Positions 2,095 through 43,733 of a stretch of DNA of 64,000 nucleotides are shown here, piece by piece (position 1 is the stretch's first letter; each line of letters begins with the position of its first letter). Made by a program: the position numbers and the translations under genes. The stretch is from Alkalibacterium putridalgicola. Lineage in GTDB: Bacteria; Bacillota; Bacilli; Lactobacillales; Carnobacteriaceae_A. The notes beneath the pieces were generated by a model, which saw only the letters and a list, made by a program, of their open reading frames with translations, was not told where the DNA came from and did no database searches. The stretch is taken from contig NZ_FOBL01000001.1 in assembly GCF_900109825.1 (NCBI RefSeq), positions 1 through 64,000 on the forward strand, given 5' to 3'.

Positions 2095-2176
2095 AGCATA
2101 CTCCTGTCTTGACAAAATAAAAAAGCTGGTCACATATGACTACCTTCAAGCCAATGTATTTTAATTTACTCAACAA

Positions 2177-3149
2177 TTAGGTGGCCTTGAGCGTTGAATC
2201 GTAATCAAGTATTTCCGATAGAATAGCTGCTTCAGTTCGTTGACCGAACAGGCGGTAGAAGGTATAGGTAGTATAAGTGATATTGTTTTCTTTCTTAAGT
2301 AGCTTCTTCCAGTAGCGTTTTAACCGTCGATACTTTTTCTGATCTTCGCCATTTGAGTTATTCAGTTGGTTCATTATTGTCACCCGTGTATTATTCATGG
2401 AGCGATTAATATGTTGGATAATGTGGCAACGATCGATGATCACATGAGCGTTAAGAAATAGAGTGGGTATGAAGCTCATATAACTGGCATTCATGTCTAT
2501 CGTTATCGTCTTCACTTCGCTTCTTTGCTTGAGGCTGTACCGAGACAAGAAATGTTGAGTGACAAAACGACTGTCTTTAGAGGGCAAAATATCCATAATA
2601 TCGCCCGTCTCCGCATCAATATATTCGAAGGCCATGCGCCCACTGGCGTATTTAAATTCGTCAAAAGACAAGTTTTCGGGAAGTGAATAGTAATGTGGCC
2701 GGTAACGTTCATCTTCTGCTGTAAGGACACGCTGAACACTCGCTTCTGATACATTCGTTTCCTTGGCTATATCTTTGATCGATCGGGTTTCACCGGATTG
2801 AGTCAGAATTTGTACTTTTATGTAATTCGAGATGAAGCAATTACGTTCAACGATGGGTGTCCGAGCGGTAAAACTTTTACCACAGCCCTTGCACATAAAG
2901 CGCTGTTTTCTGATACGCAAGTATGTAGGCAAGATCCCCGCCATGGGAAAGATTACCCGAGAGGTCTGAGTGCCGTTTTTATAGATACTGCAGCCTACGT
3001 GAACATTCTTCAGGAACATAAGACAATGTGCAGTCAATGAAATTACATTTCCTCCCCTTAAAGTCACCTTTGGTGACACAATTACCAAAAAAAGTGAGAT
3101 GTTTATCTTGAATATCTAGAATGTTTCGCATATCATTTGTAGTAGGCAA
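2177..3149 (-). pseudogene. Broken ISL3-family transposase (frameshifted and 3'-truncated)
   Basis: The reading starts at a TTG (3149) seven bases after an AAGGAGG site, and begins LPTTNDMRNILDIQDKHL, typical of ISL3-family transposases. Around 3005-3010 it shifts frame; the remainder is readable in another frame, including a zinc-ribbon half FMCKGCGKSF, a helix-turn-helix region (SIKDIAKETNVSEASVQ) and the DDE-type segments TITIDMNASY and DRCHIIQHINR. The protein ends at LDYDSTLKAT, about 100-130 residues short of the usual length near 430, so the third catalytic acidic residue and the C-terminus are missing. I could not find terminal inverted repeats. The element is therefore a decayed remnant that marks the accessory region next to lepA. 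Confidence 0.85.
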
Positions 3150-3223
3150 GTGAGTTCCTCCTTAGGTGATGTTTTCGTCGACTATTATTCTACAGGAGAA
3201 CTCACTTGTTTTCTAATATAGAT

Positions 3224-3263
3224 AAAAGGACGTTAGTGAGATTCTCTCTCACCAACGTCCTTT
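3224..3263. other. Strong hairpin next to the IS remnant
   Basis: The arms AAAAGGACGTT and AACGTCCTTT flank a second short pairing (GTGAGA with TCTCAC), giving a nearly continuous stem of about 17 bp. It lies between the transposase remnant and the lepA terminator. It could be a terminator, or a piece of the insertion element's end. Confidence 0.5.
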
Positions 3264-3274
3264 ATTGTACAACC

Positions 3275-3324
3275 AAAAAACTTCCACCAATCGCCGTCTA
3301 ATGATGGCAAAATGATGGAAGTTT
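3275..3324 (-). terminator. Terminator of lepA
   Basis: On the minus strand AAACTTCCA (3316-3324) pairs with TGGAAGTTT (3278-3286) and runs into a T-tract. The loop is long (about 29 bases) and contains CCATCATT-type sub-repeats. It is about 50 bases after the lepA stop. Confidence 0.55.
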
Positions 3325-3372
3325 CCAATTTATAAGGTTAATCAATTGTCAAATCTATTGATATATCAACGT

Positions 3373-30914: not shown

Positions 30915-30946
30915 ATTAGAAGAAATATGAAAAGGAAGTGACGACT

Positions 30947-31534
30947 ATGTTTTTCTCATTTGTACGCAGTATCATTCTGGTACTTGTCTGGATACTGAAT
31001 GGCAAGTTTAAGGTGATCGGCAAAGAGAACCTCCCACAGGATGACAATTACATTTTAATCGCCCCACATCGTTCATGGATCGATCCGGTCTATCTTGTTC
31101 TGGCGACCACGCCCAAGCAGTTCAGTGTCATGGCCAAAAAAGAACTGTTCAAGAATCCAGTTTTCAGATGGATCATTACGCACATGAATGCTTTCCCGGT
31201 CGATAGAGACAATCCCGGCCCAAGCGCCATCAAAACCCCTGTCAAATCCTTAAAAGAAACCGATCTGGGATTGCTTATCTTCCCAAGCGGCACTCGGCAT
31301 TCAAATGAACTGAAAGGTGGCGCCGTGACTATAGCCAAGTTGAGCAAGAAACCGATCGTCCCTGCTGTATACAGCGGTCCTTTAACCTTCAGTGACTTGG
31401 TGAAACGTAAAAAAGCTGTTGTCCGTATCGGCGAGCCTTTCTATGTGGAACGTAAAGTCGAAGGCATTAAAGACACGAACGCATACTATTCTGAAAAGAT
31501 CCAGCAGGCGTTTGAAGAACTCGACCGAAACTAG
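30947..31534 (+). CDS. plsC: 1-acyl-glycerol-3-phosphate acyltransferase (PlsC)
   Basis: This 195-residue membrane-bound acyltransferase makes phosphatidic acid from lysophosphatidic acid, supplying CdsA in phospholipid synthesis. An N-terminal hydrophobic helix (SFVRSIILVLVWILNG) precedes the catalytic HRSWID box (the HX4D motif) and a FPSGTRH box, where Ser stands for the Glu of the common FPEGTRS version. The ATG at 30947 is preferred over the GTG three codons upstream, which overlaps the AGGAAG ribosome site. It is transcribed alone, divergent from rpsB, and ends in a clear terminator. Confidence 0.93.
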   Translation: MFFSFVRSIILVLVWILNGKFKVIGKENLPQDDNYILIAPHRSWIDPVYLVLATTPKQFSVMAKKELFKNPVFRWIITHMNAFPVDRDNPGPSAIKTPVKSLKETDLGLLIFPSGTRHSNELKGGAVTIAKLSKKPIVPAVYSGPLTFSDLVKRKKAVVRIGEPFYVERKVEGIKDTNAYYSEKIQQAFEELDRN

Positions 31535-31552
31535 AATCTTATACTTGATCAG

Positions 31553-31585
31553 AACAGGCTGGCGCTGCTGCGTCAGCCTGTTTCA
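31553..31585 (+). terminator. Terminator of plsC
   Basis: AACAGGCTG (31553-31561) pairs with CAGCCTGTT (31574-31582), with a GC-rich loop. The following T-tract is weak. Confidence 0.65.
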
Positions 31586-31638: not shown

Positions 31639-32000
31639 AGTATTTCCTTCTATTTATGACGGTATTGTTCGCTCACGGACCACTACACTCATCAGTGAAC
31701 AGATTCCGCTCTCAAATGTCGTGCTAGGTAAGCATCTGAACCATGAGTGAACACTTTCTGCTTCATGATGTCGCACCCACGAACCACGACTCCCCCCAGT
31801 GAACAGTTTCCTCTTCAGAATGTCGTGCTCACAGACCACACCTCTATCCAGTAAACAGTTTTTGCTTCCGATTGTCGTACTCACGGACCACTACTCTCAT
31901 CAGTGAGCAGTTTCCTCTTCAGAATGTCGTGCTCGGTAAGCGTCTGAACCATGAGTGAACATATTCTGCTTCATGATGTTGCACCCGCTCACAGTATCTC
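31639..32000. repeat. Tandem array A: 52-base degenerate repeat
   Basis: The anchor AGTGAACA or a near match occurs at 31694, 31746, 31798, 31850, 31902 and 31954, that is at exactly 52-base steps six times, with a partial copy before. A unit roughly reads: anchor, TTTCCTCTTCAGAATGTCG, TGCTCACGGACCAC, TACTCTCATC. The copy at 31954 is almost identical to that at 31746, four units away, so there is a higher-order pattern. 52 is not a multiple of three, and no reading frame is kept, so it is not coding. It sits between the convergent plsC and ABC-exporter ends. Confidence 0.85.
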
Positions 32001-32420
32001 TTTGATTTGACACTTTTCATCACTCCCCCCTCTTTATATGACCAGCTCGTCAGATTTCCGGCGATGACTTTGTCATTTGCAGCATAAAATGACAAGCTCA
32101 TCTAAGCTTTATTCCTGACTGTGCCATTCTTGACGCAAAATAGCACAGTCAGGAATAGTTTCACTCTGGGCTTGTCATTTCAGGGGTACGATGACAAGCT
32201 CATCATGACTCCCATCCTCGACTCTGTCATATTTATTCCAAAATGACAAGCTCAAAAATATTTTAACCATGACTCTGCCATTTCTGATTCAAAATGACCG
32301 GCTCAAAATATTTTCCTTCTCCACCTGGTCATTTCAAGCTTAGAATGACAAGCTCGGCAACATTCGACGCCTGACACTGTCATTCCGAGCATAAAAAGAC
32401 AAAGTCATCCAATAAATCCT
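32001..32420. repeat. Tandem array B: 51-base hairpin repeat
   Basis: The anchor TGACAAGCTC (or variant) occurs at 32039, 32090, 32141, 32192, 32244, 32295, 32346 and 32397, at steps of 51 with one of 52. Most units contain an inverted repeat of the kind TTGTCATTT / AAATGACAA, for example 32070-32078 with 32087-32095, and GCTTGTCAT / ATGACAAGC at 32170-32178 with 32191-32199. The unit at 32111-32156 has different arms, ATTCCTGACTGTGC / GCACAGTCAGGAAT, that still pair perfectly over 14 bases. It adjoins array A and ends near the ABC-exporter terminator. Confidence 0.88.
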
Positions 32421-32452
32421 GCTCACTTTGCCGTCTGAACTTCAGAACCAGC

Positions 32453-32495
32453 AAAAAAGCAGCGGAACGTTCATCCTAAGATGACGTTCCGCTGC
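32453..32495 (-). terminator. Terminator of the ABC exporter operon
   Basis: GCAGCGGAACGT (32459-32470) pairs with ACGTTCCGCTGC (32484-32495), followed on the minus strand by TTTTTTGC. A strong terminator. Confidence 0.9.
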
Positions 32496-32515
32496 AGTCA
32501 TGCGTTCTTATTCTT

Positions 32516-34309
32516 TTATTGTGTCTGTAACCCAAGATTCTGAAGTTCGTACATGTCTTTATATTGTCCACCGCTATCGATGAGCTCATCATGTGTGCCG
32601 CGTTCAATGATATGTCCGTTATCCAGTACGAGGATCTGATCAGCATCTCTGATCGTCGACAATCTGTGAGCGATCGCAACTGTGGTACGCCCTTTTCTCA
32701 TTCGCTGTAGACCTTCTTGAATGAGTGCTTCGGTTTCCGTATCGATATTGGCCGTCGCTTCATCCAGTATAAGGATCTTCGGATCTCTGACGATCGTACT
32801 GGCAAACGAGATCAGCTGCTTCTGTCCACTTGAGAAGCTGGCTCCACGTTCGACCACTTTGGCATCATACTGTCCCGGAAGTTCTTCGATAAATTTATCT
32901 GCCTGAACGAAACGTGCCGCCTCAATGATTTCTCTGTCGGTGATCGATTCATTCAGCAAACGGATATTATCTTTGATTGTTCCGTAGAAAAGGAAGGAAT
33001 CCTGAAGGACGAGTCCGGTACGCTGACGCAGTTCACGCATGGGAAACTCTTTGATCGATCTGCCGTCGATCAGGACTTCCCCTTCATCAAAATCGTAGAA
33101 ACGCATCAGTACATTGATGATGGAAGACTTCCCGCTTCCCGTATGGCCGACCAGAGCGATGGTCTCGCCTGGATTGACGGTGAAGGAAATATTTTTCAGT
33201 ACGTTGTTCTTGCCATCATAAGAAAATGATACATTCTTGAATTCAATTTTTCCTTCTTCGATATGCGCGTCTTCCTTATCCAGTTGCGCCGGTGCATACT
33301 GCTCATTGTCCATGACCGTCAAGATCCGGCTGCTTGAAACGATACCGTCCTGGAACAAGCTCATGCTGTCCATAAGGCGTGTCAGCGGCCGGAAAAAGTT
33401 GTTGGCGTAAGTCGTGAATGCATAAATGATCCCGACTTCGACCGGACCCGTCAGTGCTTCTAGCCCAAAAATCGTCAAAATAACGACGACTGACAAGGTA
33501 TAAAGCAGATTGATGACCGGGCTCAAAAGCAGGGCATTGATTTTCGTCATTGAAAAACGCGAATCAAAGTAAGACTGGTTCGTCTCCTCGAATTCCTTCT
33601 GAAGACGTTTCTCCTGACGGAACTGCTGGATGATCGAGATCCCATTGATCGTCTCAGCCAGCTTCGTATTCAGCAGACTCAGTTTCGACTTCATTTCACT
33701 GTATGTCTTTGAACTGTAAACCTGATAGATACGTATCACGATGAGTAATACCGGTGCAAAAATCAGGATCCAAAGTGTCACGGTCACATCCAAGAGGAAC
33801 ATCGCTCCTAATGAAATGACGACACCAAAGACTCCCTGCATGATGTTCAAAAAGACATTCCAGAAATCTTTCATCGCTTCCGTATCATTAGTGACACGCG
33901 TGATGAGCCAGCCTGTCGAGGTCTGGTCAAAGAAGCGCATCCCCAGTGTATGAAGCTTTTCAAAAAGCTGATTACGGATGTTCTGGACCGTTTTCTCTGA
34001 AGCCATATTGAAAAGATACAATTCCAGATACCAGACAGTCAACCGGATCAGCGTCACACCAAAGTGCAGCCCTGCAAAGGTTAGAATGATCGAAAGTGAC
34101 AAATCGCCTGTCGTCAAATGATTGTCGATAAACAGCTGAATGATACGCGGTAGTGCAGCTGTCGATATAGCAAGAGCGACACTGAAAAAGATAGCAACAG
34201 CAAACTGCTTCTTATATGGCTTGCCGAAGGTCATGATGCGTTTCAGGATATGCATCTGCTCTTTGAAAGGTATGGATCGTCTAACTGACAACTCTTTCTG
34301 TTCCATCAT
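32516..34309 (-). CDS. Heterodimeric multidrug-type ABC exporter, subunit 2
   Basis: This 597-residue half-transporter has an N-terminal six-helix membrane domain (about residues 30-320) and a C-terminal ATPase domain. Walker A is GHTGSGKSS, and Walker B is ILILDEATANID with the canonical catalytic Glu. The signature is FSSGQKQ, which departs from LSGGQ. With the partner (normal signature, Asp in place of the Glu) it fits the asymmetric BmrCD/LmrCD/YheHI type, with one working and one degenerate ATP site. The ATG overlaps the partner's stop (TAATG). Substrate is unknown; drug or lipid export is typical. Confidence 0.92.
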   Translation of the reverse strand: MMEQKELSVRRSIPFKEQMHILKRIMTFGKPYKKQFAVAIFFSVALAISTAALPRIIQLFIDNHLTTGDLSLSIILTFAGLHFGVTLIRLTVWYLELYLFNMASEKTVQNIRNQLFEKLHTLGMRFFDQTSTGWLITRVTNDTEAMKDFWNVFLNIMQGVFGVVISLGAMFLLDVTVTLWILIFAPVLLIVIRIYQVYSSKTYSEMKSKLSLLNTKLAETINGISIIQQFRQEKRLQKEFEETNQSYFDSRFSMTKINALLLSPVINLLYTLSVVVILTIFGLEALTGPVEVGIIYAFTTYANNFFRPLTRLMDSMSLFQDGIVSSSRILTVMDNEQYAPAQLDKEDAHIEEGKIEFKNVSFSYDGKNNVLKNISFTVNPGETIALVGHTGSGKSSIINVLMRFYDFDEGEVLIDGRSIKEFPMRELRQRTGLVLQDSFLFYGTIKDNIRLLNESITDREIIEAARFVQADKFIEELPGQYDAKVVERGASFSSGQKQLISFASTIVRDPKILILDEATANIDTETEALIQEGLQRMRKGRTTVAIAHRLSTIRDADQILVLDNGHIIERGTHDELIDSGGQYKDMYELQNLGLQTQ

Positions 34310-36060
34310 TAGTAATCCTCTCCTTCCAGTTTACGTTCCAGCTGCTGCTGATTATACATATCTTCATACCAGCCGCCATGAGCAAGCAGTTCGCTGTGCG
34401 TGCCTCGCTCGATGATCGTGCCCTTCTCTATAACGATGATTTCTTCGGCATGCATGACGGAACTGATCCGGTGCGCCGCAATGATCGTTGTCTGACCTTC
34501 CCGGATCTCTTTCAAGCCCGATAAAATCGACTCCTCGGTTTTGGCATCCACTGCAGATAATGAATCATCCAGGATCATGAGCTCAGGGTTGATCAGAATG
34601 GCGCGCGCAATGGAAATACGCTGTTTTTGACCGCCAGAAAGAGAGACGCCTCGTTCTCCTACTTCGGTATCATAGCCTTCTGGCAATTCCATGATATCGT
34701 CATGAATATCAGCCAGTTTAGCAGCTGCTTCGACAGCTTCCTGGGACAATGTCGGATCAGCAAAGCGGATGTTTTCTCTGATCGTTGTCGAAAAGAGATA
34801 GTTATCCTGTGGGACATAACCGATCTGTTTTAAAAGAGCATCAAGTGTGTAATCCTTGATATCGTACCCGCCATAACGGATCGTTCCTTTATAGTTATCA
34901 TATTCGCGCAGGAGCAGTTTCATGATCGACGTTTTGCCGGCACCGGTTTTACCGACGATCCCTAAAGTCTGCCCCTGTTCGATATTGAATGACACATGAT
35001 GCAGAGCAACCATTTCGTCGTCCGGATAACTGAAAGCTTCGATATCGAATGAAAGTGTGCCTGAAATAGGTTCATCGATCGCCCCTTGTCTTTCATTGAT
35101 CGCACTGTCTTCTCTTAAAAGATTTTCAATACGGTCATAGCTTGCCGATCCGCGTTCGATGATGTTGAACAAACGTCCGATAGCGAACATCGGCCAGACC
35201 AGCATACCGATATAATTGATGAAGGTGACAAAATCACCGATAGAAATTTCATCTCCCATAATAAGGTATCCACCGACAATGATCGTCAGGACATAAGAGA
35301 GCCCCATGATCAGCGTGATAGCCGGGTCAAAAAGCGAATCGATTTTATAAACTGCTTTGTTTTTCAAAACGACATTATCCGTCTGATTCTCGAATTTCTC
35401 GACATCTTCCTTTTCCTGACCAAACGTCTTCATGACTTTGATCCCTTGAATGCTTTCCTGGACTTTATCATTCAACTGAGAAAAGGCAGCTTGAGCATCC
35501 CTAAACCGCAAGTGCAGACGCTGGCCTAGAATACGTGACGTCAGTGCCAGAAATGGCAAAGGAATGACGGCGATCAGTGTCAGACGCCAGTCAACGACGA
35601 ACAGCATAGCCAAAAGCGTTGTCAGCCCTACGCTTATGGCATCTGCCATCGTCAGGACTCCCCCACCGGCGACCATGCGCAGTCCACGCAAGTCGTTGGT
35701 TGCATGCGCCATTAAATCGCCGGCTCTGTATTTCTGGAAAAATGTATTATCCATGTTTGTAAAATGGTCGTATAACTGTTTTCTGACTATTTGTTCCAGC
35801 TTGGCGGCATTCCCCCATATATTCACACGCCACATGTACCGCAAAATATACTGAAGCACAGCTGTAGAAGTCAAAATGAGCATCCACTGCAATAATGATT
35901 GTTCAGTCAAGACATCTGTCTCGATCTCATCTACCACGATCCCGATAATCCGAGGCGGTATCAGCTGCAGAACAGCCACGATCATTAAACCTGCGACCCC
36001 TAATAAATAGGATTTTTTCTCTTGTTTGAAAAACCATCCTAACCGTTTAAATATATCCAT
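34309..36060 (-). CDS. Heterodimeric multidrug-type ABC exporter, subunit 1 (degenerate-site partner)
   Basis: This 583-residue half-transporter has six membrane helices and a nucleotide-binding domain. Walker A is GKTGAGKTS, the signature is LSGGQKQR and Walker B reads LMILDDSLSAVD, with Asp where the catalytic Glu is expected; this is the hallmark of the non-catalytic partner in heterodimeric exporters. The start at 36060 is supported by GGGAG nine bases upstream; a longer reading has no site. It is the first gene of the operon, and a 13-base palindrome lies 52 bases upstream. Substrate unknown. Confidence 0.92.
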   Translation of the reverse strand: MDIFKRLGWFFKQEKKSYLLGVAGLMIVAVLQLIPPRIIGIVVDEIETDVLTEQSLLQWMLILTSTAVLQYILRYMWRVNIWGNAAKLEQIVRKQLYDHFTNMDNTFFQKYRAGDLMAHATNDLRGLRMVAGGGVLTMADAISVGLTTLLAMLFVVDWRLTLIAVIPLPFLALTSRILGQRLHLRFRDAQAAFSQLNDKVQESIQGIKVMKTFGQEKEDVEKFENQTDNVVLKNKAVYKIDSLFDPAITLIMGLSYVLTIIVGGYLIMGDEISIGDFVTFINYIGMLVWPMFAIGRLFNIIERGSASYDRIENLLREDSAINERQGAIDEPISGTLSFDIEAFSYPDDEMVALHHVSFNIEQGQTLGIVGKTGAGKTSIMKLLLREYDNYKGTIRYGGYDIKDYTLDALLKQIGYVPQDNYLFSTTIRENIRFADPTLSQEAVEAAAKLADIHDDIMELPEGYDTEVGERGVSLSGGQKQRISIARAILINPELMILDDSLSAVDAKTEESILSGLKEIREGQTTIIAAHRISSVMHAEEIIVIEKGTIIERGTHSELLAHGGWYEDMYNQQQLERKLEGEDY

Positions 36061-36098
36061 AATTCTAATCTCCCACATTTTACATTTTTCTACCGGTT

Positions 36099-36124
36099 AC
36101 ATTCTTCAATGTGACAATATGTCA
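36099..36124. promoter_or_regulatory. Candidate operator upstream of the ABC exporter
   Basis: Two adjacent dyads: ACATTCTTCAATGT (36099-36112) and TGACAATATGTCA (36112-36124). They lie between the yneF terminator and the exporter start, where a local repressor would bind. There is also a direct repeat of TTACATT near 36080 and 36097. No regulator gene is adjacent. Confidence 0.35.
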
Positions 36125-36137
36125 TATTGGGTTAAAG

Positions 36138-36166
36138 TTGAACGGACAGGCTATCTGTCCGTCAAT
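36138..36166 (-). terminator. Terminator of yneF
   Basis: TTG-ACGGACAG (36138-36149) pairs with CTGTCCGT-AA (36155-36165), with a 5-base loop. On the minus strand CTTTAA follows. Confidence 0.65.
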
Positions 36167-36171
36167 TCAAC

Positions 36172-36417
36172 CTATTTCTTTTTGTTTTTTGTACTTTTAC
36201 TTTTCTGTTGCGTCTTCATCTGGCTCATCATCTGATTGATTTTTCTTTCAGAAGGTTTCTGACCCATCTGCATCATCATCATGCGCAGCATGTTTTCATC
36301 GATAGGAGGATTTTTCTCAAAGTAGTCCATCATATATTTTCTGGCAATGAAGAATCCACCAGCAAGTCCACCGATCAGTGCCAATAAAATTAATACTATC
36401 GCTAACCACATATCCAT
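36172..36417 (-). CDS. yneF: YneF family membrane protein (UPF0154)
   Basis: This 81-residue protein has a single N-terminal membrane helix ([20 protein letters not shown]), the conserved [15 protein letters not shown] segment, and a Met-rich stretch [13 protein letters not shown]. It ends in a basic Lys-rich tail that would stay in the cytoplasm. The function of the family is unknown. Its position near tkt and lexA matches the Bacillus lexA-yneA-yneB-ynzC-tkt-yneE-yneF order. AGGAG supports the start at 36417. Confidence 0.93.
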
Positions 36418-36582
36418 ACATATTCACTCCTCTCAGCTATTACTTGTTACTAATAAACCTGTCGCCCGTTTTATACATTCCAATAAAACTGCTCACTGAA
36501 CTATTTTACACAATTAACATGGAAAAATAAACCTATAAACGTAATTTAGTGTATATTATACGTTTGATTCAAGATTTGATTT

Positions 36583-36624
36583 TTAAAAAACTTCCTTTCA
36601 ATTAAGAAATTGAAAGGAAGTTTT
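36583..36624 (-). terminator. Terminator of tkt
   Basis: AAAACTTCCTTTCAATT (36587-36603) pairs with the complementary arm at 36607-36624 around a 3-base loop, followed on the minus strand by a T-run. Strong. Confidence 0.92.
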
Positions 36625-36652
36625 CCAGATCTTTATTCAGTATTTGAACGAT

Positions 36653-38653
36653 TTAGCTGTTTAAAGATAGAAAAGTGTTCACAACGTTCTCAGGTGTAAA
36701 GCCGTAAGCTTCAACAACTGCTTCGCCGTTACCACTGGCACCGAATTTATCTATAGCCATCACTTTACCGGCATCTTTGACATATTTATGCCAGCCGAAT
36801 GATGAGCCCATTTCGATCGCTACACGATTTTTAACAGCACTTGGAAGAACTGACTCTTTATACTCGTCAGACTGATCTTCAAACAAGTCGAAACTTGGCA
36901 TTGAGACGACTGATACGTCTTTGCCTTGTGCTTTAAGCTCTTTTTGAGCATCCATTGCCAATGAAACTTCTGACCCAGTCGCGATCAGGATGCCGTCCGG
37001 TGTTTCTTTGTCAGCTGGTGACAGGACGTAGGCACCTTTTTTAAGGTTCTCTCTAGCCAATTCTTTTGAACCGGCAAGGACTGGAAGATTTTGACGAGTC
37101 AACACAAGCATGGTTGGTCTGCTTTGTGAAGTCAGTGCAACTTCCCATGCAGCTGCTACTTCGTTGCCGTCAGCAGGTCTCACAACAGATAAGTTGTGCA
37201 TGCCGCGGAAACTTGAAAGCTGTTCGACAGGCTCGTGTGTCGGACCGTCTTCACCTACAGCAATAGAGTCATGTGTCATGACATAAATAGCTGGGATTTC
37301 TGATAAGGCAGCTAAACGGACAGCTGGTCTCAAGTAGTCAGTGAATACGAAGAATGTTGAGACGTAAGATTTAGTCCCTCCATGCAGCATGATACCATTT
37401 AAGGCAGCAGCCATGGCAAATTCACGTACACCGTACCAGATGTTGCGTCCTTCATATTGTCCAGCCTGGAAATCTTCAACACCGTCGATGGTTGTTTTGT
37501 TAGATCCAGACAAGTCGGCAGATCCGCCCCATAGGTTAGGAACAGCTTTAGCGATGGCATTCAACACTTCACCACTTGTTGAACGTGTAGCAGCAGCCCC
37601 GTCGCCTTCTGAAAAGACTGGCAGTTCTTTATCCCAGTTCTCTGGTAATTTACCAGACAATGAATCTTCAAACTGGGCAGCTAGATCTGAATGGGTATTG
37701 CGATAGTCTTCAAGCTTTTTGTTCCATTCTGATTCAAGTTTATCGCCTTTATCGATCATGTGCTCTTTAAAGCGTTTAGCTACTTCTTCAGGGACGAAGA
37801 AATCTTCGCCTTCCCATCCGTAAGCTTTTTTAGCTGCTTCAACGCCTTCAGGTCCTAATGGTGCACCGTGGACATTATGTGTTCCAGCGTTGGGCGCTCC
37901 GAAGCCGATAACTGTTTTGATTTCGATCAAGGTTGGTTTGTCTGTTGATTCTTTTGCTTTTGTGATCGCTTTGTCGATAGCGTCCAGATCGTTGCCATCT
38001 TCGACTAAGATATGTTCCCAGCCATAAGCTTCAAAGCGTTGGCCGACATCTTCCGTGAAAGCCTTAGATGTTGGTCCGTCCAGCTGAATGTCGTTGGAAT
38101 CGTATAACATAACCAGTTTACCCAACTTAAGGTGTCCGGCAAGAGATGCAGCTTCTTGAGATACACCTTCCTGAAGATCGCCGTCTCCACATAATGCATA
38201 GGTGTAATGGTCGACGATAGAATGGCCCTCTTTATTGTAAGTAGCTGATAAGTGTGCTTCAGCCATTGCCATACCTACCGCATTCGCGATACCTTGTCCA
38301 AGCGGTCCAGTTGTTGCTTCCACGCCGTCTGTGACATGTACTTCTGGGTGCCCTGGTGTATTGCCTTCAAGTTGACGGAAATTTTTAAGATCGTCAACAC
38401 TGACCTTGTAGCCAGACAAGTGAAGCAAGCTGTAAAGCATCATAGAACCGTGTCCTGCACTTAATACGAAACGGTCACGGTCGAACCATCTCGGGTTTTT
38501 AGGATTGACATTCAAGTGACGTGTCCATAATGTATACGCCATTGGTGCTGCCCCCATAGGTAACCCCGGGTGACCTGAATTTGCTTTCTGTACGCCATCG
38601 ATACTTAATGTACGAATCGTATCGACTGCCATTTGATCGGTTTTATCGAACAA
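36653..38653 (-). CDS. tkt: Transketolase
   Basis: This 666-residue thiamine-diphosphate enzyme transfers two-carbon units in the pentose phosphate pathway. It shows [12 protein letters not shown] near the N-terminus, the cofactor-binding [13 protein letters not shown], the pyrimidine-binding domain with [14 protein letters not shown], and [11 protein letters not shown]. The start is an uncommon TTG at 38653, nine bases after AAGGA; the nearby ATG is in another frame. It is transcribed alone from the promoter at 38700-38728, although ynzC lies just upstream on the same strand. Confidence 0.98.
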
Positions 38654-38699
38654 TGAACTTCATTCCTTCCGTTTGTTTAAAATTTAAACTCACTATATT

Positions 38700-38728
38700 A
38701 GTGTACTATCATTACGCTTTCATTTCAA
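38700..38728 (-). promoter_or_regulatory. Promoter of tkt
   Basis: On the minus strand TTGAAA (38723-38728), 17 bases, TACACT (38700-38705). The spacer resembles a cre-like TGAAAGCG, but the other half does not fit. Confidence 0.55.
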
Positions 38729-38765
38729 TGTAAACTCTATCAATAGAAGAAAACGTAAGTGGCGT

Positions 38766-39008
38766 TCACCCACGATCGTGAAGGCCTTTATCTTTCTGGA
38801 TTTCCTTCACTTTATCAGGAGTCACATCGTTTCCGTCAGGATCTACTATTTTCATGCCTTCTATATGGTTTCTCATACCAGAACGGAACGCTTTGATGTA
38901 CTCGTCTCTTAAACCTTTTTGTTCCTGCTTTTCCTCATCAGTTAAGCCGTCATTGCGCTCTTTTCTTACTAATTCATTGATGCGGTCGAGCTTTTGTTTC
39001 TCAAGCAT
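38766..39008 (-). CDS. ynzC: YnzC family protein (DUF896)
   Basis: This 80-residue protein has the family pattern RINELVRKERNDGLTDEEKQEQ and LRDEYIKAFR, two helices forming a hairpin, then a short acidic tail with VDPDGNDVTPDKV. The family is linked to the SOS regulon of B. subtilis; its molecular job is unknown. It lies in the divergent position to lexA, and the yneA and yneB genes that normally lie between are not here. AAGGAGG supports the start. Confidence 0.94.
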   Translation of the reverse strand: MLEKQKLDRINELVRKERNDGLTDEEKQEQKGLRDEYIKAFRSGMRNHIEGMKIVDPDGNDVTPDKVKEIQKDKGLHDRG

Positions 39009-39170
39009 GTTATCCTCCTTACACCATTTAAGTCATTTATTTCTCACATTACCTATCATACCATTTGTGACAATAAAGTGGTAGTTATAGATAGCATTCT
39101 CATTTATTTATCAAAATAATGACATTTTTCCAGGTATAGCTTCTAAGAATTCCACTCCCCTCCTTTTATT

Positions 39171-39184
39171 CGAACATTCGTTTG
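39171..39184. promoter_or_regulatory. LexA box 1 (lexA/ynzC intergenic)
   Basis: CGAACATTCGTTTG matches the Gram-positive SOS box CGAACNNNNGTTCG at all but two positions, and overlaps the -35 region of lexA. Confidence 0.7.
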
Positions 39185-39210
39185 ATTCAGGGTATATACT
39201 ATGCTATACT
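39182..39210 (+). promoter_or_regulatory. Promoter of lexA
   Basis: TTGATT (39182-39187), 17 bases, TATACT (39205-39210), flanked by the two LexA boxes. Confidence 0.65.
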
Positions 39211-39223
39211 TTAATAAAATATA

Positions 39224-39235
39224 GAACGGTTGTTC
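39224..39235. promoter_or_regulatory. LexA box 2
   Basis: GAACGGTTGTTC is a perfect GAAC-N4-GTTC dyad just downstream of the lexA -10 region. It gives autorepression. Confidence 0.8.
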
Positions 39236-39269
39236 CATATACTGAACAAATAACAGAGAGGGTTTTAGT

Positions 39270-39905
39270 ATGACGACAAGAGGGCGTAAAGGTGAGAAAC
39301 AGCTGGAGATCCTGAATTTCATCTATAAACAAGTAAAAAAGAAAGGTTATCCACCTACTGTTAGAGAAATCGGTGAAGCCACGGCACTATCATCTACCTC
39401 TACAGTGCACGGACACCTGGCCAGACTTGAAAAAAACGGCTTTATCCTGCGTGACCCTTCTAAACCGCGAGCCATTGAATTTACTCCTTTAGGACTGGAT
39501 AAGCTGGGCATCGACCCGGACGAGGATAAGATCCCCCTTCTGGGTATCGTCACAGCCGGGGAACCGATCCTTGCGATCGAAGAAGCAACGGACTACTTCC
39601 CTATCCCCAATGACCTTGAGATAGAAAAAGGCAATCTGTTCATGCTGACCATTCGCGGAGACAGTATGATGGATGTCGGCATTTTAGACGGCGACCAGGT
39701 CATTGTCAGAAAACAGGAAGCTGCCAATAATGGTGATATCGTTATCGCTATGACTGATGAAGATGAAGCGACCTGTAAACGATTCTACAAAGAAGCCAAT
39801 CATATCCGATTACAGCCGGAGAATGAAACGATGGCTCCTATCATACTTAATGATGTAAAAATCCTTGGGAAAGTTGTTTCATTATACAGAAGTCACATTT
39901 TTTAA
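39270..39905 (+). CDS. lexA: LexA, SOS response repressor
   Basis: This 211-residue repressor cleaves itself when stimulated by RecA filaments. The winged helix-turn-helix (residues 1-68) has [20 protein letters not shown]. The cleavage site is Ala96-Gly97 in IVTAGEP, with catalytic Ser132 in RGDSMMDVG and Lys170 in EATCK. The promoter carries two LexA boxes, so it is autoregulated. It is divergent from ynzC, as in Bacilli but without yneA and yneB between. A TTGGGA-type terminator of the AAAAAGGCTGGG class follows. Confidence 0.98.
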
Positions 39906-39923
39906 GAAATATCATACGAAATG

Positions 39924-39955
39924 AAAAAGGCTGGGATAAAAACTCCCGGCCTTTT
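39924..39955 (+). terminator. Terminator of lexA
   Basis: AAAAAGGCTGGGA pairs with TCCCGGCCTTTTT around a short A-rich loop. Strong. Confidence 0.88.
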
Positions 39956-39989
39956 TGCTTTTTTGAAACTGTTGGAGAGTGAGGACATT

Positions 39990-40215
39990 CAGATGAGTGA
40001 TTTCGCTGCATGACAACCACTTCCTAGTGAATCACGGTATCAACTGGTCACTATAAGGGGATTGAGACTACTTTCTGTAAAAACACAGCATAAACTGGTC
40101 ACTAAAACGTTATTGTGACTACTTCCTGTAAAATCACAGCATAAACTGGTCACTAAAACGTTATTGTGACTACTTCCTGTAAATTTACGGTGTGAACTGG
40201 TTACAAAACTGCAGG
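39990..40215. repeat. Tandem array C: 51-base repeat
   Basis: The anchor ACTGGTCAC (or ACTGGTTAC) occurs at 40043, 40094, 40145 and 40196, steps of exactly 51, with a partial copy before. A unit reads: GGTCACTAAAACGTT, ATTGTGACTACTTCCTG, TAAAATCACAGCATAAA. The segment GTCAC ... GTGAC in the middle copies could pair. Because 51 is divisible by three, an open frame of 88 codons appears on the minus strand, but it runs through a terminator hairpin and is not credible as a gene. Confidence 0.85.
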
Positions 40216-40243
40216 AGGAATGTTTTTCCTTGACTAAACGTAG

Positions 40244-40279
40244 GAAAGAGGCTGGGGCAGAAATGTCCCAGCCTCTTTC
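40244..40279. terminator. Strong hairpin, second terminator-like element
   Basis: AAAGAGGCTGGG (40245-40256) pairs with CCCAGCCTCTTT (40267-40278). It resembles the lexA terminator at 39924, and may be a dispersed hairpin of the same class. It separates arrays C and D. Confidence 0.7.
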
Positions 40280-40440
40280 GTGTTTCCTTATCGATTCCTC
40301 CCGCAAACGCGTGATAAAAACCAGTCCGTCTTCCGCTTTATCGTAAGTCGATGCTTTGCCGTATTACATGAGATAGCTAGATCTCCTGCAGGGCTATAAA
40401 AGCTATTTCCGTTAAGGTTACTCTTGATCGCTCCAGCCGC
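40280..40440. other. Gene-free stretch with loose dyads
   Basis: No gene is seen. Dyads are GATAAA (40313-40318) with TTTATC (40337-40342) and ATAGCT (40373-40378) with AGCTAT (40401-40406). Spacing between them is 61-72, not 51, so I do not include it in the arrays. Confidence 0.3.
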
Positions 40441-40760
40441 CTTAGACGATTAGGATCAGGTATCGTTTTCCTAAGTGACGAATAAAGCAAACTTCGACAG
40501 ATAGGCTGGTTATATTTTTTTCTAACTGTCGAATTCTACTGTTATTCGGTCGATAGGGTTAGCTGGCAGTAACCTAATTACCGAAGAAGGCTCACTTCGG
40601 TAATTAGGTTGACAGGATGAGTTTCAATGTGTCGAGTACAGGTCCACTTCGGTAATTAGGTGCTGCTCTTTATTCCCTACTTACTGAATATTGAGAACTT
40701 CGGCAAGTTCTTTTCGTAACCCAAATCGTACTTACCGAATCAGCTGAAAAGCTGAAGCTT
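40441..40760. repeat. Tandem array D: 51-52-base hairpin repeat
   Basis: The anchor ACTTCGG (or ACTTCGA, TATTCGG) occurs at 40491, 40543, 40594, 40646 and 40697, steps of 52, 51, 52, 51. A second string, TTACCGAA or TTACTGAA, is at 40578, 40681 and 40732 with matching steps (103 and 51). The two are complementary; AACCTAATTACCGAAG and CTTCGGTAATTAGGTT (40571-40611) form a near-perfect stem. The CTAACTGTCGAA / TTCGACAG pair at 40491-40532 has another sequence. No gene is seen. Confidence 0.75.
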
Positions 40761-40824
40761 TTTAGGTTCAGACTCTAACTCTAAGCCTTCTTTAAGACCT
40801 CTTTCCCCTTACTATGCTTAAATA

Positions 40825-40863
40825 AAAAAAACAGGTAAAAACCACCCTCGTGGTCTTTACCTG
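40825..40863 (-). terminator. Terminator of apt
   Basis: CAGGTAAA-ACCAC pairs with GTGGT-TTTACCTG (40832-40863), loop of 4, followed on the minus strand by TTTTTTTT. Strong. Confidence 0.92.
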
Positions 40864-40881
40864 CAGATTTCAGAATATCTA

Positions 40882-41394
40882 TTAATACTTCATCAATGTG
40901 AAGATATCGTAACCTTTGATTTTGTCTCGGCCTCTAAGCTCTTCCAATTCAATAAAGAATGCTGCACCAACGACGACGCCTCCAAGTTTCTCTACGAGTT
41001 CGATCGTAGCAGCGATGGTCCCACCAGTTGCGAGAAGATCATCTGTGATCAGCACTTTCTGACCAGGTTTAATAGAGTCTTTGTGTAATTGCAAAACATC
41101 GGTACCGTATTCAAGACCGTAGTTTACTTCGATCGTTTCTCTTGGCAGCTTCCCTTTTTTACGGCAGGGTGAGAAACCAATTTCCAGCTCATAAGCTACT
41201 GGGCATCCTACGATAAAGCCTCTTGCTTCAGGACCTACGATCATTTCAACGCCTTTGTCTTTAGCATATTCAACGATTTTATCCGTTGCGGCCTTATAGG
41301 CTTCCCCATCTGCCATCAATGGTGAAATATCTCTAAATATGATACCTTTTTCCGGAAAATCAGGAACATCCGCAATATATTTCTTAAAATCCAT
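40882..41394 (-). CDS. apt: Adenine phosphoribosyltransferase
   Basis: This 170-residue purine salvage enzyme converts adenine and PRPP to AMP. The PRPP-binding motif is [16 protein letters not shown]; other signatures are [11 protein letters not shown] and [13 protein letters not shown] chose the start at 41394 after GGAGGA; the in-frame ATG 33 bases upstream would overlap recJ and lacks a site. It follows recJ, as in Bacilli (recJ-apt). Confidence 0.97.
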
Positions 41395-41426
41395 TTGTCT
41401 TCCTCCATCATTTGAATCGTTCATCA

Positions 41427-43733
41427 TTATTTTTTCAGGTAAGCAAGCAACTCTTTAAAAGAACTGTAGACAAGTACTTCTTCTGCTTCTATCTGCTTCA
41501 GCCTTTTTTTATAAGTCAGCGTATCTTCCAGCTGTTTTTTACTCGGATTCGACACTAAACTCAACTTCCCATCTTCCATTGTAACAAATTCGTTCTCTAA
41601 AAACACCATTAACATGAATTTTAATGTATCTTTATCTAAATTCATACTTTTCACCATGTGTTTCGTGTCTTTAGACAGAACGACTTCCTGCTTTTTCATC
41701 AACCACTTGTATAATTTCTGAAAATGCTGTTTTTTGGGCATCCCCTTCAGATAATAGTCATTAGGCGAATGAAAATAGAGGTAGATCGGATGTGACTGAT
41801 ACGTCTGATAAATCGATTTGAAATGTTCAACATCTTCTGGGGTATCCACGATGATGATCGGCGTCCCGGAAGGAATTTCTTTTAATTCTGATTCACTGTC
41901 TGCGATTTGATGAGTGGACCCACTATCGATACGTGGCGTCCATTGTGCGGCAATTGCTTTCTGGAAAAAGATGAAATGAACATTTGATGCTTTAAACATC
42001 TTGTCCTGAATGGCACTTTTCCGCTGATCAATGATCAAGGGTTCTTTTGACTTGTAGTCGAGAGCCTGAAGCTGTACTTTTCTGAATCCGTTCCATTCAT
42101 TTATCGACAAGTAACCGATGATATCGATTTCCGGCGAGGACTTCAGGATGTCAGACCAGTCTGCGCTGTTAAAGGCGATCATGTCCAGCTGGCTATCGTC
42201 TTTTTGTAAAGTGGCTTTGAAATGCGTCTGATTCGCGCCGATTTTTTTTGTATTTTCAGGAAAAACTGACCCGATTTTCACCAGTGGTTTCGTGTTATCC
42301 TGTCCGAACGGTTTCAGCTGCTCGATGTCTTCGATAGTTTGCGTATCGATATCTCTCCAGTCGATTTCAGTTGCGATATGAAACGTTTTTTCACTTTTAA
42401 GTGAACCTGACAGCTGTTCCGCTTTTTTGTTGACTTCTTCTGTGAATTCTGACAAGTAACTTCGATCCAGGCTGAGACCGCAGGCCATTTCGTGCCCGCC
42501 AAAACTTTGAAGTTTATCCCTGAAGTCATTAACGCACTCATAAAGATTGAACCCTTCAATACTCCTGCCGGAACCTTTTATTTTGTTTTCAGCTTCATTG
42601 ACTGTTAGAACGAGTACAGGTTTATGAAATTTCTCAGTGATCTTACTTGCAACGATCCCCAAAACACCTTCGTGCCAGTTTTTCTTTGCCAGAACCATCA
42701 GGGACTGATTTTTTTTATGTTCAGCCATGATCATCGCTTCTTCAGTAATCGCCTCGACAATAGCTTTCCGCTCATTATTTTTCGCCAGGATCTCATTGCT
42801 CAATTTAAGTGCTTTTTCTTCATCGAAGGTGGTCAGCAAATCTACGACCAACGAGGCATCCCCTAACCGTCCCACTGCATTGATGGGGGGAGCCAGTTGA
42901 AAGCCTACTGTTTCTTCATCCACTGATTCAGGTTTGATATTACTGGCCTGCATCAAAGCGATCAGTCCCAGACGCTGCGTCTGCTGCAGGACTTTTAAAC
43001 CATAGTAAGCGATCGCTCTATTTTCTCCGGTCAAAGAAACCAGATCTGCGATCGTACCGATAGCTGCCAGTTCAAGAAACTCCATTGAATTTTCACCAAG
43101 CAGAGCCTGTGCCATTTTCATACTGACTCCCGCTCCGGAGAGGTCCGGTGTTGTATAATGTTGTTCCGGATGTCTAGGATGTATGACCGCATAGGCCTCC
43201 GGGAGAACATCCGGACATTCGTGGTGATCCGTCACAATGACATCCACGCCTCTGGACCGAGCATGTGAAATAGCCTCATGACCAGATACACCGTTATCCA
43301 CGGTCACGATCAAGTGTGTTCCATTATCAATTAACTGATCAAATGCTTCGACATTCGGACCATAGCCTTCTTTGAATCGGTTGGGAATAAAATAATCGAC
43401 TTGTCCCCCGAGCAGTTCGATGGCTTCATAAAGAATGGCCGTACTCGTTACGCCATCGGCATCATAATCACCATAAACAGTTATCTGCTCATGACTTCCC
43501 ACAGCAGCCATTATCCGCTCTACTGCTTTTTCCATATCATAAAATAAAAAAGGGTCTCCGATCAGATCCATACTGGGGGTAATAAACTGTTCGACCGCCT
43601 CTTTCGTCTCCAAGCCTCTTTTCAAGCACAGCTCTGCGAATGTTTTTGATCGACCAAGTTCTGATGCCAGCTGATCACGTTTTGCTTCGTCTATCTGTTT
43701 ATTCAATTTCCATACAGTTTTTTTATTTTGCAT
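41427..43733 (-). CDS. recJ: Single-strand DNA exonuclease RecJ
   Basis: This 768-residue 5'-3' exonuclease acts in recombination and repair. It shows the DHH-family motifs [17 protein letters not shown] and VTDHHE, and the DHHA1-type [10 protein letters not shown]. The OB-fold and a long C-terminal extension specific to Firmicutes (residues 550 on, with [10 protein letters not shown]) follow. The start at 43733 is chosen because GAGGAG is six bases upstream. It precedes apt, with which it is probably co-transcribed. Confidence 0.96.

Follow-up and report, generated by a model that had tools for sequence, protein, structure and literature searches.

Tandem arrays of unrelated sequence share a 51-52 bp spacing in the intergenic gaps of Alkalibacterium

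The stretch of DNA analysed here (the window) is positions 1-64000 of contig C41 from the 2.60-Mb draft genome of Alkalibacterium putridalgicola (G000). It contains four tandem arrays, A to D, whose units differ in sequence and repeat at nearly the same interval. The arrays occupy two gaps between converging genes, with A and C lying between a plsC-like acyltransferase gene and an ABC exporter gene, and B and D lying between lexA and an apt-like phosphoribosyltransferase gene (Table 1). An earlier reading of the same sequence (the original prediction) placed them in the two longest gene-free regions. With our own gene caller the gaps measure 981 and 976 bp and are indeed the longest in the window, besides a false gap at 2095-3372, where the caller missed a 303-amino-acid open reading frame.

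Each array was compared by autocorrelation (lags 20-120) with 300 dinucleotide shuffles, none of which scored as high as the array itself. The best lag is 52 for array A (z 13.3), 51 for array C (z 9.5), 51 for array B (tested over 40010-40215; z 14.4) and 103 for array D (z 7.4, with 4.3 at lag 51 and 3.6 at lag 52), and the periods first proposed (A 52, B 51, C 51, D 51-52) are therefore upheld. D-type arrays on other contigs of this genome and in another genome of the genus, G003, have alternating steps of 51 and 52. Run by itself, Tandem Repeats Finder picks up A and B but neither C nor D. The consensus of array A in A. putridalgicola is TGAGTGAACAnTTTT-N6-AAAATGTCGnACTCA followed by a linker, and the arms of array C are of the type CTCTGTCATTT ... 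AAAATGACAAGCTCA. Dyads had been described in B and D, and less clearly in C; in a folded-profile test the symmetry of C and D was matched by 0/200 permutations and the core of A gave p 0.025, and the long core holding B was not significant. No Rfam family matches the window above its gathering score.

Table 1. Features of the two array-bearing gaps and their flanks (window coordinates)
Feature	Position	Strand	Basis or remarks
Acyltransferase (plsC-like)	30938..31534	+	Pfam; flanks A/C gap
Array A	31660..31990	+	Six recognisable dyad units, period 52
Array A pattern starts	31695, 31747, 31799, 31851, 31903, 31955		
Array C	32020..32430	.	Period 51; ~7 dyads by eye
ABC exporter	32516..34309	-	Pfam; flanks A/C gap
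lexA	39270..39905	+	Pfam; flanks B/D gap
Terminator-like hairpin behind lexA	39924..39956	+	Terminator scan; left edge of element B
Left leader of element B	39957..40021	+	Query 39951-40045
Array B	40022..40215	+	GGTCAC ... GTGAC dyads, period 51
Right leader of element B and second terminator-like hairpin	40216..40279	+	Hairpin 40244-40279, GAAAGAGGCTGGGGC..GTCCCAGCCTCTTTC
Array D	40470..40770	.	TTACCGAAG ... CTTCGGTAA dyads, 103-bp two-dyad period
Terminator-like hairpin of apt-like gene	40831..40864	-	Terminator scan
Phosphoribosyltransferase (apt-like)	40882..41427	-	Pfam; flanks B/D gap

The single period observed in the window appears to be the rule across the genome. The survey covered all gaps of at least 120 bp in 1.77 Mb from five Alkalibacterium genomes (446.8, 387, 359, 200 and 372.3 kb), using autocorrelation at lags 20-120, a threshold of z 4.5 and genes from a simple codon-based caller of our own instead of the annotation. 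Periodicity was found in 43 of 674 gaps, 42 of which have a best lag of 51-52 or 102-105, corresponding to a period of 51-52.5 bp or its double, and in 0/885 shuffled gaps (single-base shuffles of 177 A. putridalgicola gaps, five times each). Over lags 20-170, the mean lag spectrum of the 303 gaps measuring 250 bp or more has peaks at 51-52, 102-104, 153 and 156 and nowhere else. Among gaps just below threshold (z 3.7-4.5), the lags fall into the 51-52 or double class in 6/13 and are scattered in 7/13. A widely varying period, one of two outcomes that the original prediction had named as telling against it, is thus not seen, and the claim of a common spacing with unrelated sequences is supported in samples of five genomes. 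At a BLAST threshold of E 1e-4, 45 array cores (including C and D, which are sub-arrays of gaps already counted) form 27 single-linkage clusters, a procedure that over-splits; by eye, at least nine types of half-site share the spacing, and in most array types the dyad spans ~34-36 bp and the linker ~15-18 bp. Array hits in A. putridalgicola are found a few hundred bases or less from contig ends on C16, C19, C42, C46, C47, C49, C54, C63, C10, C35, C57 and C58, and arrays therefore probably break the assembly and are under-counted.

The behaviour of the sequence family to which array A belongs (family A) shows how closely this spacing is held. The family A pattern has 66 matches in A. putridalgicola, compared with 3 for the reversed pattern, and in 45 units from this genome the information is high in the arms and near zero in the six-base loop and the linker. 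Of 153 neighbouring pairs of units, 111 are 52 bp apart and 42 are 51 bp apart, with none at 50 or 53, and all unit distances below 120 bp are 51, 52, 103 or 104. Loop and linker together are less than 45% identical in 57 of the 153 pairs, and the 51/52 spacing is still held. Array spacing is kept, not only born. This speaks against an origin by pure slippage, one of the options in the original prediction, as exact spacing outlasts the divergence of loop and linker. A broader alternative is that the period is set by copying, whether through a putative recombinase or through slippage over a protein-wrapped stretch, and that the arrays are selfish, REP-like DNA of no use to the host. The 102-104 peaks show that single units or pairs have been duplicated in tandem, as this explanation would have it, but linkers under no constraint should gain insertions and deletions, and those of the 57 diverged pairs keep the exact spacing. 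We consider it rather unlikely.

Comparison with the nearest relative in the genome set also bears on copying. This is G011, taken as Alkalibacterium subtropicum, whose LexA is 98% identical (G001 is likewise taken as A. gilvum and G024 as Marinilactibacillus piezotolerans). In the plsC gap of A. subtropicum an A array lies at the same place, with conserved flanks and a turned-over interior; by eye, the linkers cannot be aligned between the two species, and the arms and the 52-bp step are kept. Array C has ~7 units in A. putridalgicola and ~1.5 in A. subtropicum (by eye). At the lexA locus of A. subtropicum, array D is present in a shorter form and array B is absent. Among the matches listed, the lexA locus has a short gap with no array in G001, G003, G004, G006, G007, G008, G009 and G010 (G002 and G005 are outside this comparison). 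Arrays are thus gained and lost as blocks, and unit numbers shift. Flanks that stay while interiors turn over are what copying would produce.

Type B forms a dispersed element, which A. putridalgicola carries at lexA and A. subtropicum lacks there. Its left leader has copies on contigs C27 (93%) and C10 (91%) and at one place in A. subtropicum (78%); in all, the leader is found at three places in A. putridalgicola, at one in A. subtropicum and in none of the 10 other Alkalibacterium genomes. No autonomous partner for the element emerged from this distribution, though the four loci were not searched for genes. Both leaders and the hairpins of B recur in its copies on C27 and C10 and, with a looser match, on C29. 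Array B lies between two hairpins of the GAGGCTGGG type in the window, where A. subtropicum has one such hairpin and no B. At the site of a second B array in A. subtropicum, A. putridalgicola has ~46 bp between aligned blocks. This dispersal with conserved leaders likewise counts in favour of copying. The hairpins GAGGCTGGGACA...TGTCCCAGCCTC at 39924-39956 and 40244-40279, which flank element B, recur at several places. One hairpin with a preceding AAATAAGG, AAATAAGGAAGAGAGATGGCCATCTCTCTTTTT, separates an array from the neighbouring gene at L005 (C31 of A. putridalgicola) and at C2:46220-46260 of G003, which are different loci in two species.

The dyads, and their position behind genes, could also indicate transcribed hairpins, acting as stabilisers in 3' untranslated regions or as tandem small RNAs, with the size of the stem setting the period. 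Covariation between the arms is not clear. In family A, 1/11 position tests across loop or linker reached p 0.036 and the others gave 0.15 or above. In D arrays the left/right combinations are C-G 28, C-A 17, T-A 14 and T-G 12 (Fisher p 0.22), and mismatches are therefore no less frequent than wobble pairs (C-A 17 against T-G 12). Five A units fold worse than their shuffles (z +0.4 to +1.6), and two B units fold no better than theirs. The orientation of the arrays is not tied to that of the genes: where both neighbours were called, A arrays in co-directional gaps run along with the genes in 11 cases and against them in 7, and a further 10 lie in convergent gaps and 0 in divergent gaps. A strict orientation had been suggested by four G003 arrays and was dropped in view of these overall counts. 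The arrays of the lexA gap lie beyond a terminator-like hairpin, and a promoter scan found no excess over shuffles in either gap; nor does any Rfam family match, as noted above. The lack of clear covariation, the free orientation and A units that fold no better than shuffles argue for arrays at the level of DNA and not for small RNAs; the small-RNA option of the original prediction is not supported, and transcribed hairpins of any kind are improbable.

The arrays are concentrated behind the ends of genes. They occur in 22/68 convergent, 18/479 co-directional and 2/127 divergent gaps of at least 120 bp. Gap length alone is insufficient to explain the convergent preference, because the excess remains when only gaps of at least 400 bp are counted (19/34, 18/95 and 2/28, respectively). 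Between co-directional and divergent gaps there is no significant difference (p 0.24-0.28). An equal occurrence in all kinds of gap, the second outcome named as telling against the original prediction, is therefore not seen either. The expectation that arrays sit at sites of convergent transcription therefore stands as a preference and not as a confinement, with 18 of 42 arrays in co-directional gaps. Both divergent cases (G003 C6:83523-84155 and A. gilvum C42:3576-4277) are, judged by eye, of a single array type, GGGCACGC...; as the sole type found in divergent gaps, it may have another role. Terminators had been described on the flanks of both gaps in the window. The terminator scan agrees for the lexA/apt gap and finds none in the plsC gap, where two GC-rich hairpins, at ~31553-31583 and ~32459-32495, are seen by eye.

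Beyond A. putridalgicola, the arrays have been found in close relatives. Family A is present in 5/12 Alkalibacterium genomes (G006 by a single weak match) and in 3/5 genomes of the sister genus g9 (G025 by a single match); the reversed control pattern has one match in all of these genomes, in G026 of g9. Outside the taxonomic family, 3/268 genomes of the order have one two-mismatch match each. Five family A units in M. piezotolerans lie 52 bp apart, and 1/40 gaps sampled in G026 is periodic, with a lag of 52, a new sequence and a convergent setting. Samples from other genera gave 0/23 periodic gaps in G019 and 0/51 in M. piezotolerans, and 1/18 in G013, with a lag of 45 that looks, on inspection by eye, like a coding repeat missed by the gene caller. 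Among open-licence papers, none of those listed describes such arrays in its title or the opening of its abstract, and the terms 'intergenic', 'tandem repeat' and 'Alkalibacterium' nowhere occur together.

Two known systems resemble these arrays. BOX and ERIC are also dispersed intergenic repeats with dyads, built as fixed modules of lengths other than those found here. Closer are the REP/BIME-2 elements of E. coli, which share short imperfect dyads, a dispersed extragenic position and ~45-51 bp per dyad; family A, with its many matches over the reversed control, is likewise a set of dispersed, extragenic, imperfect palindromes. BIME-2 elements are gyrase sites (PMC6379681). In E. coli K-12 the two-REP periods of four BIME arrays, two of them chosen because that paper names them, are 102 (L256:11053-11296), 93 (L260:5765-5997), 89 (L267:3241-3514) and 91 (L268:6030-6458). 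A universal spacing was considered after the first BIME (102/104) and dropped because the further arrays gave 93, 89 and 91. A scan of K-12 found 3/152 gaps periodic, namely two BIMEs and a tRNA pair. BIME spacing is thus not constant, in contrast to the one spacing shared here by many families, and BIME palindromes alternate in orientation, whereas family A units run head to tail. Of 39 entries in the orientation list, which include two single units and at least one array seen twice, 37 have several units; 35 of these lie on one strand and two (L015, L033) are mixed. REPs have been tied to a Y1 transposase (PMC2817692). Y1_Tnp was not found in 6/8 genomes (G001, G003, G007, G010, G024 and G026), which are mostly drafts in which the gene could lie in a gap; it is present in G004 and G011, and six pieces of it occur in A. 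putridalgicola. An origin from the RAYT/REP system was rejected because the array-rich A. gilvum and G003 have no detectable Y1 transposase. The same absence, with other recombinases not searched for, speaks against copying. Membership of REP fails on the varying BIME periods and on the absence of a detectable Y1 transposase from these two array-rich species.

The STAR elements of Staphylococcus aureus offer the second parallel. They are intergenic direct repeats with a conserved motif, diverged spacers, locus-variable numbers and unknown function (PMC3532100), which makes them a similar case on the side of copying. Their start signature, GTGGGACAGAAATGAT / GGGACAGAAAT, resembles the hairpin beside array B. 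STAR has one 14-bp GC-rich motif, T(G/A/T)TGTTG(G/T)GGCCC(C/A), with spacers of 40-44 bp, giving steps of 54-58 bp (PMC3532100), where those here are 51-52. The motif has no exact match in 268 loci and, at two mismatches, one match in the window against 1.9 expected, outside the arrays. The Alkalibacterium arrays are filed beside REP/BIME and STAR, not within them. Conserved arms and unrelated linkers of constant length also recall a CRISPR-like array, in which repeats separate acquired spacers, but linkers are often related or shared between neighbouring units, there are many dispersed sites per genome, and no Cas gene is among the four that flank the gaps (Cas genes elsewhere were not searched for, nor were linkers compared with phages). 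We regard this as very improbable.

The explanation that we favour, and to which we give about an even chance, is that these are DNA-level arrays of inverted half-sites, occupied by a putative chain of protein with a topological or insulating job behind the ends of genes. In most types, a dyad of ~34-36 bp and a linker of ~15-18 bp place successive dyads 51-52 bp apart, or about five helical turns, which would set them on the same face of the helix; the spacing and the arms are observed, and we infer the shared face and the phased binding of protein from them. Most likely, a putative protein or machine common to these genomes would bind successive dyads as a regular chain. Arms might then drift to new sequence families where spacing could not. 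Arrays gain and lose length as single units or pairs are duplicated locally, and type B, at least, is found at several sites along with its leaders and the terminators on either side. As the arrays lie behind gene ends, most often of converging genes, the likeliest job would be topological or insulating, where transcription units end. Speculatively, and by analogy with BIME-2 of E. coli, they are candidate sites for gyrase or a nucleoid protein.

Several points weigh against this explanation. Much of the sample was picked with array hits already known: C41 of A. putridalgicola was taken whole, C51, C63, C54 and C39 were picked as known to hold hits, and the contigs of A. gilvum and G003 were drawn from those with family A hits. 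In the part unselected by hits (C41, A. subtropicum C20 and the G004 pieces), 7/287 gaps are periodic, all at 51, 52, 103 or 105; two of the seven are the window's own and a third corresponds to one of these in A. subtropicum, leaving four. The sole exception among the 43 periodic gaps has a lag of 46 (A. putridalgicola C51:66012, z 4.6). The family A search pattern fixed the length of the loop and left that of the linker alone free, and the occurrence of both 51 and 52 means that the phase tolerates one base. By eye, several array types share an outer TGAG...CTCA; part of the types may therefore descend from one ancestor, in which case the periods of the families are not fully independent. 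Dyad symmetry is common among the arrays, not universal, reaching p<=0.05 in only 29/45 cores and the 0.01 level in 23/45 (folded profile). Lastly, two units of C, and one of the two examined from D, fold well as RNA compared with shuffles (z -2.3 to -4.6), as transcribed hairpins would.

The protein-chain explanation has a stronger form, which we put forward tentatively as possible: an element read by its geometry, in which one machine, or related DNA-binding proteins, would read a chain of inverted half-sites every five turns behind the ends of genes, with the spacing as the conserved code and the letters free. REP, STAR and other extragenic repeats are generally grouped according to sequence, and what they are for is an old open question. 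The arrays described here vary in sequence and hold their spacing to within one or two bases in samples of five genomes from one genus, with 52 recurring in the sister genus (G024, G026). The fixed spacing provides a handle for finding a protein that needs five turns, and would allow such elements to be searched for in other genomes by period rather than by sequence.

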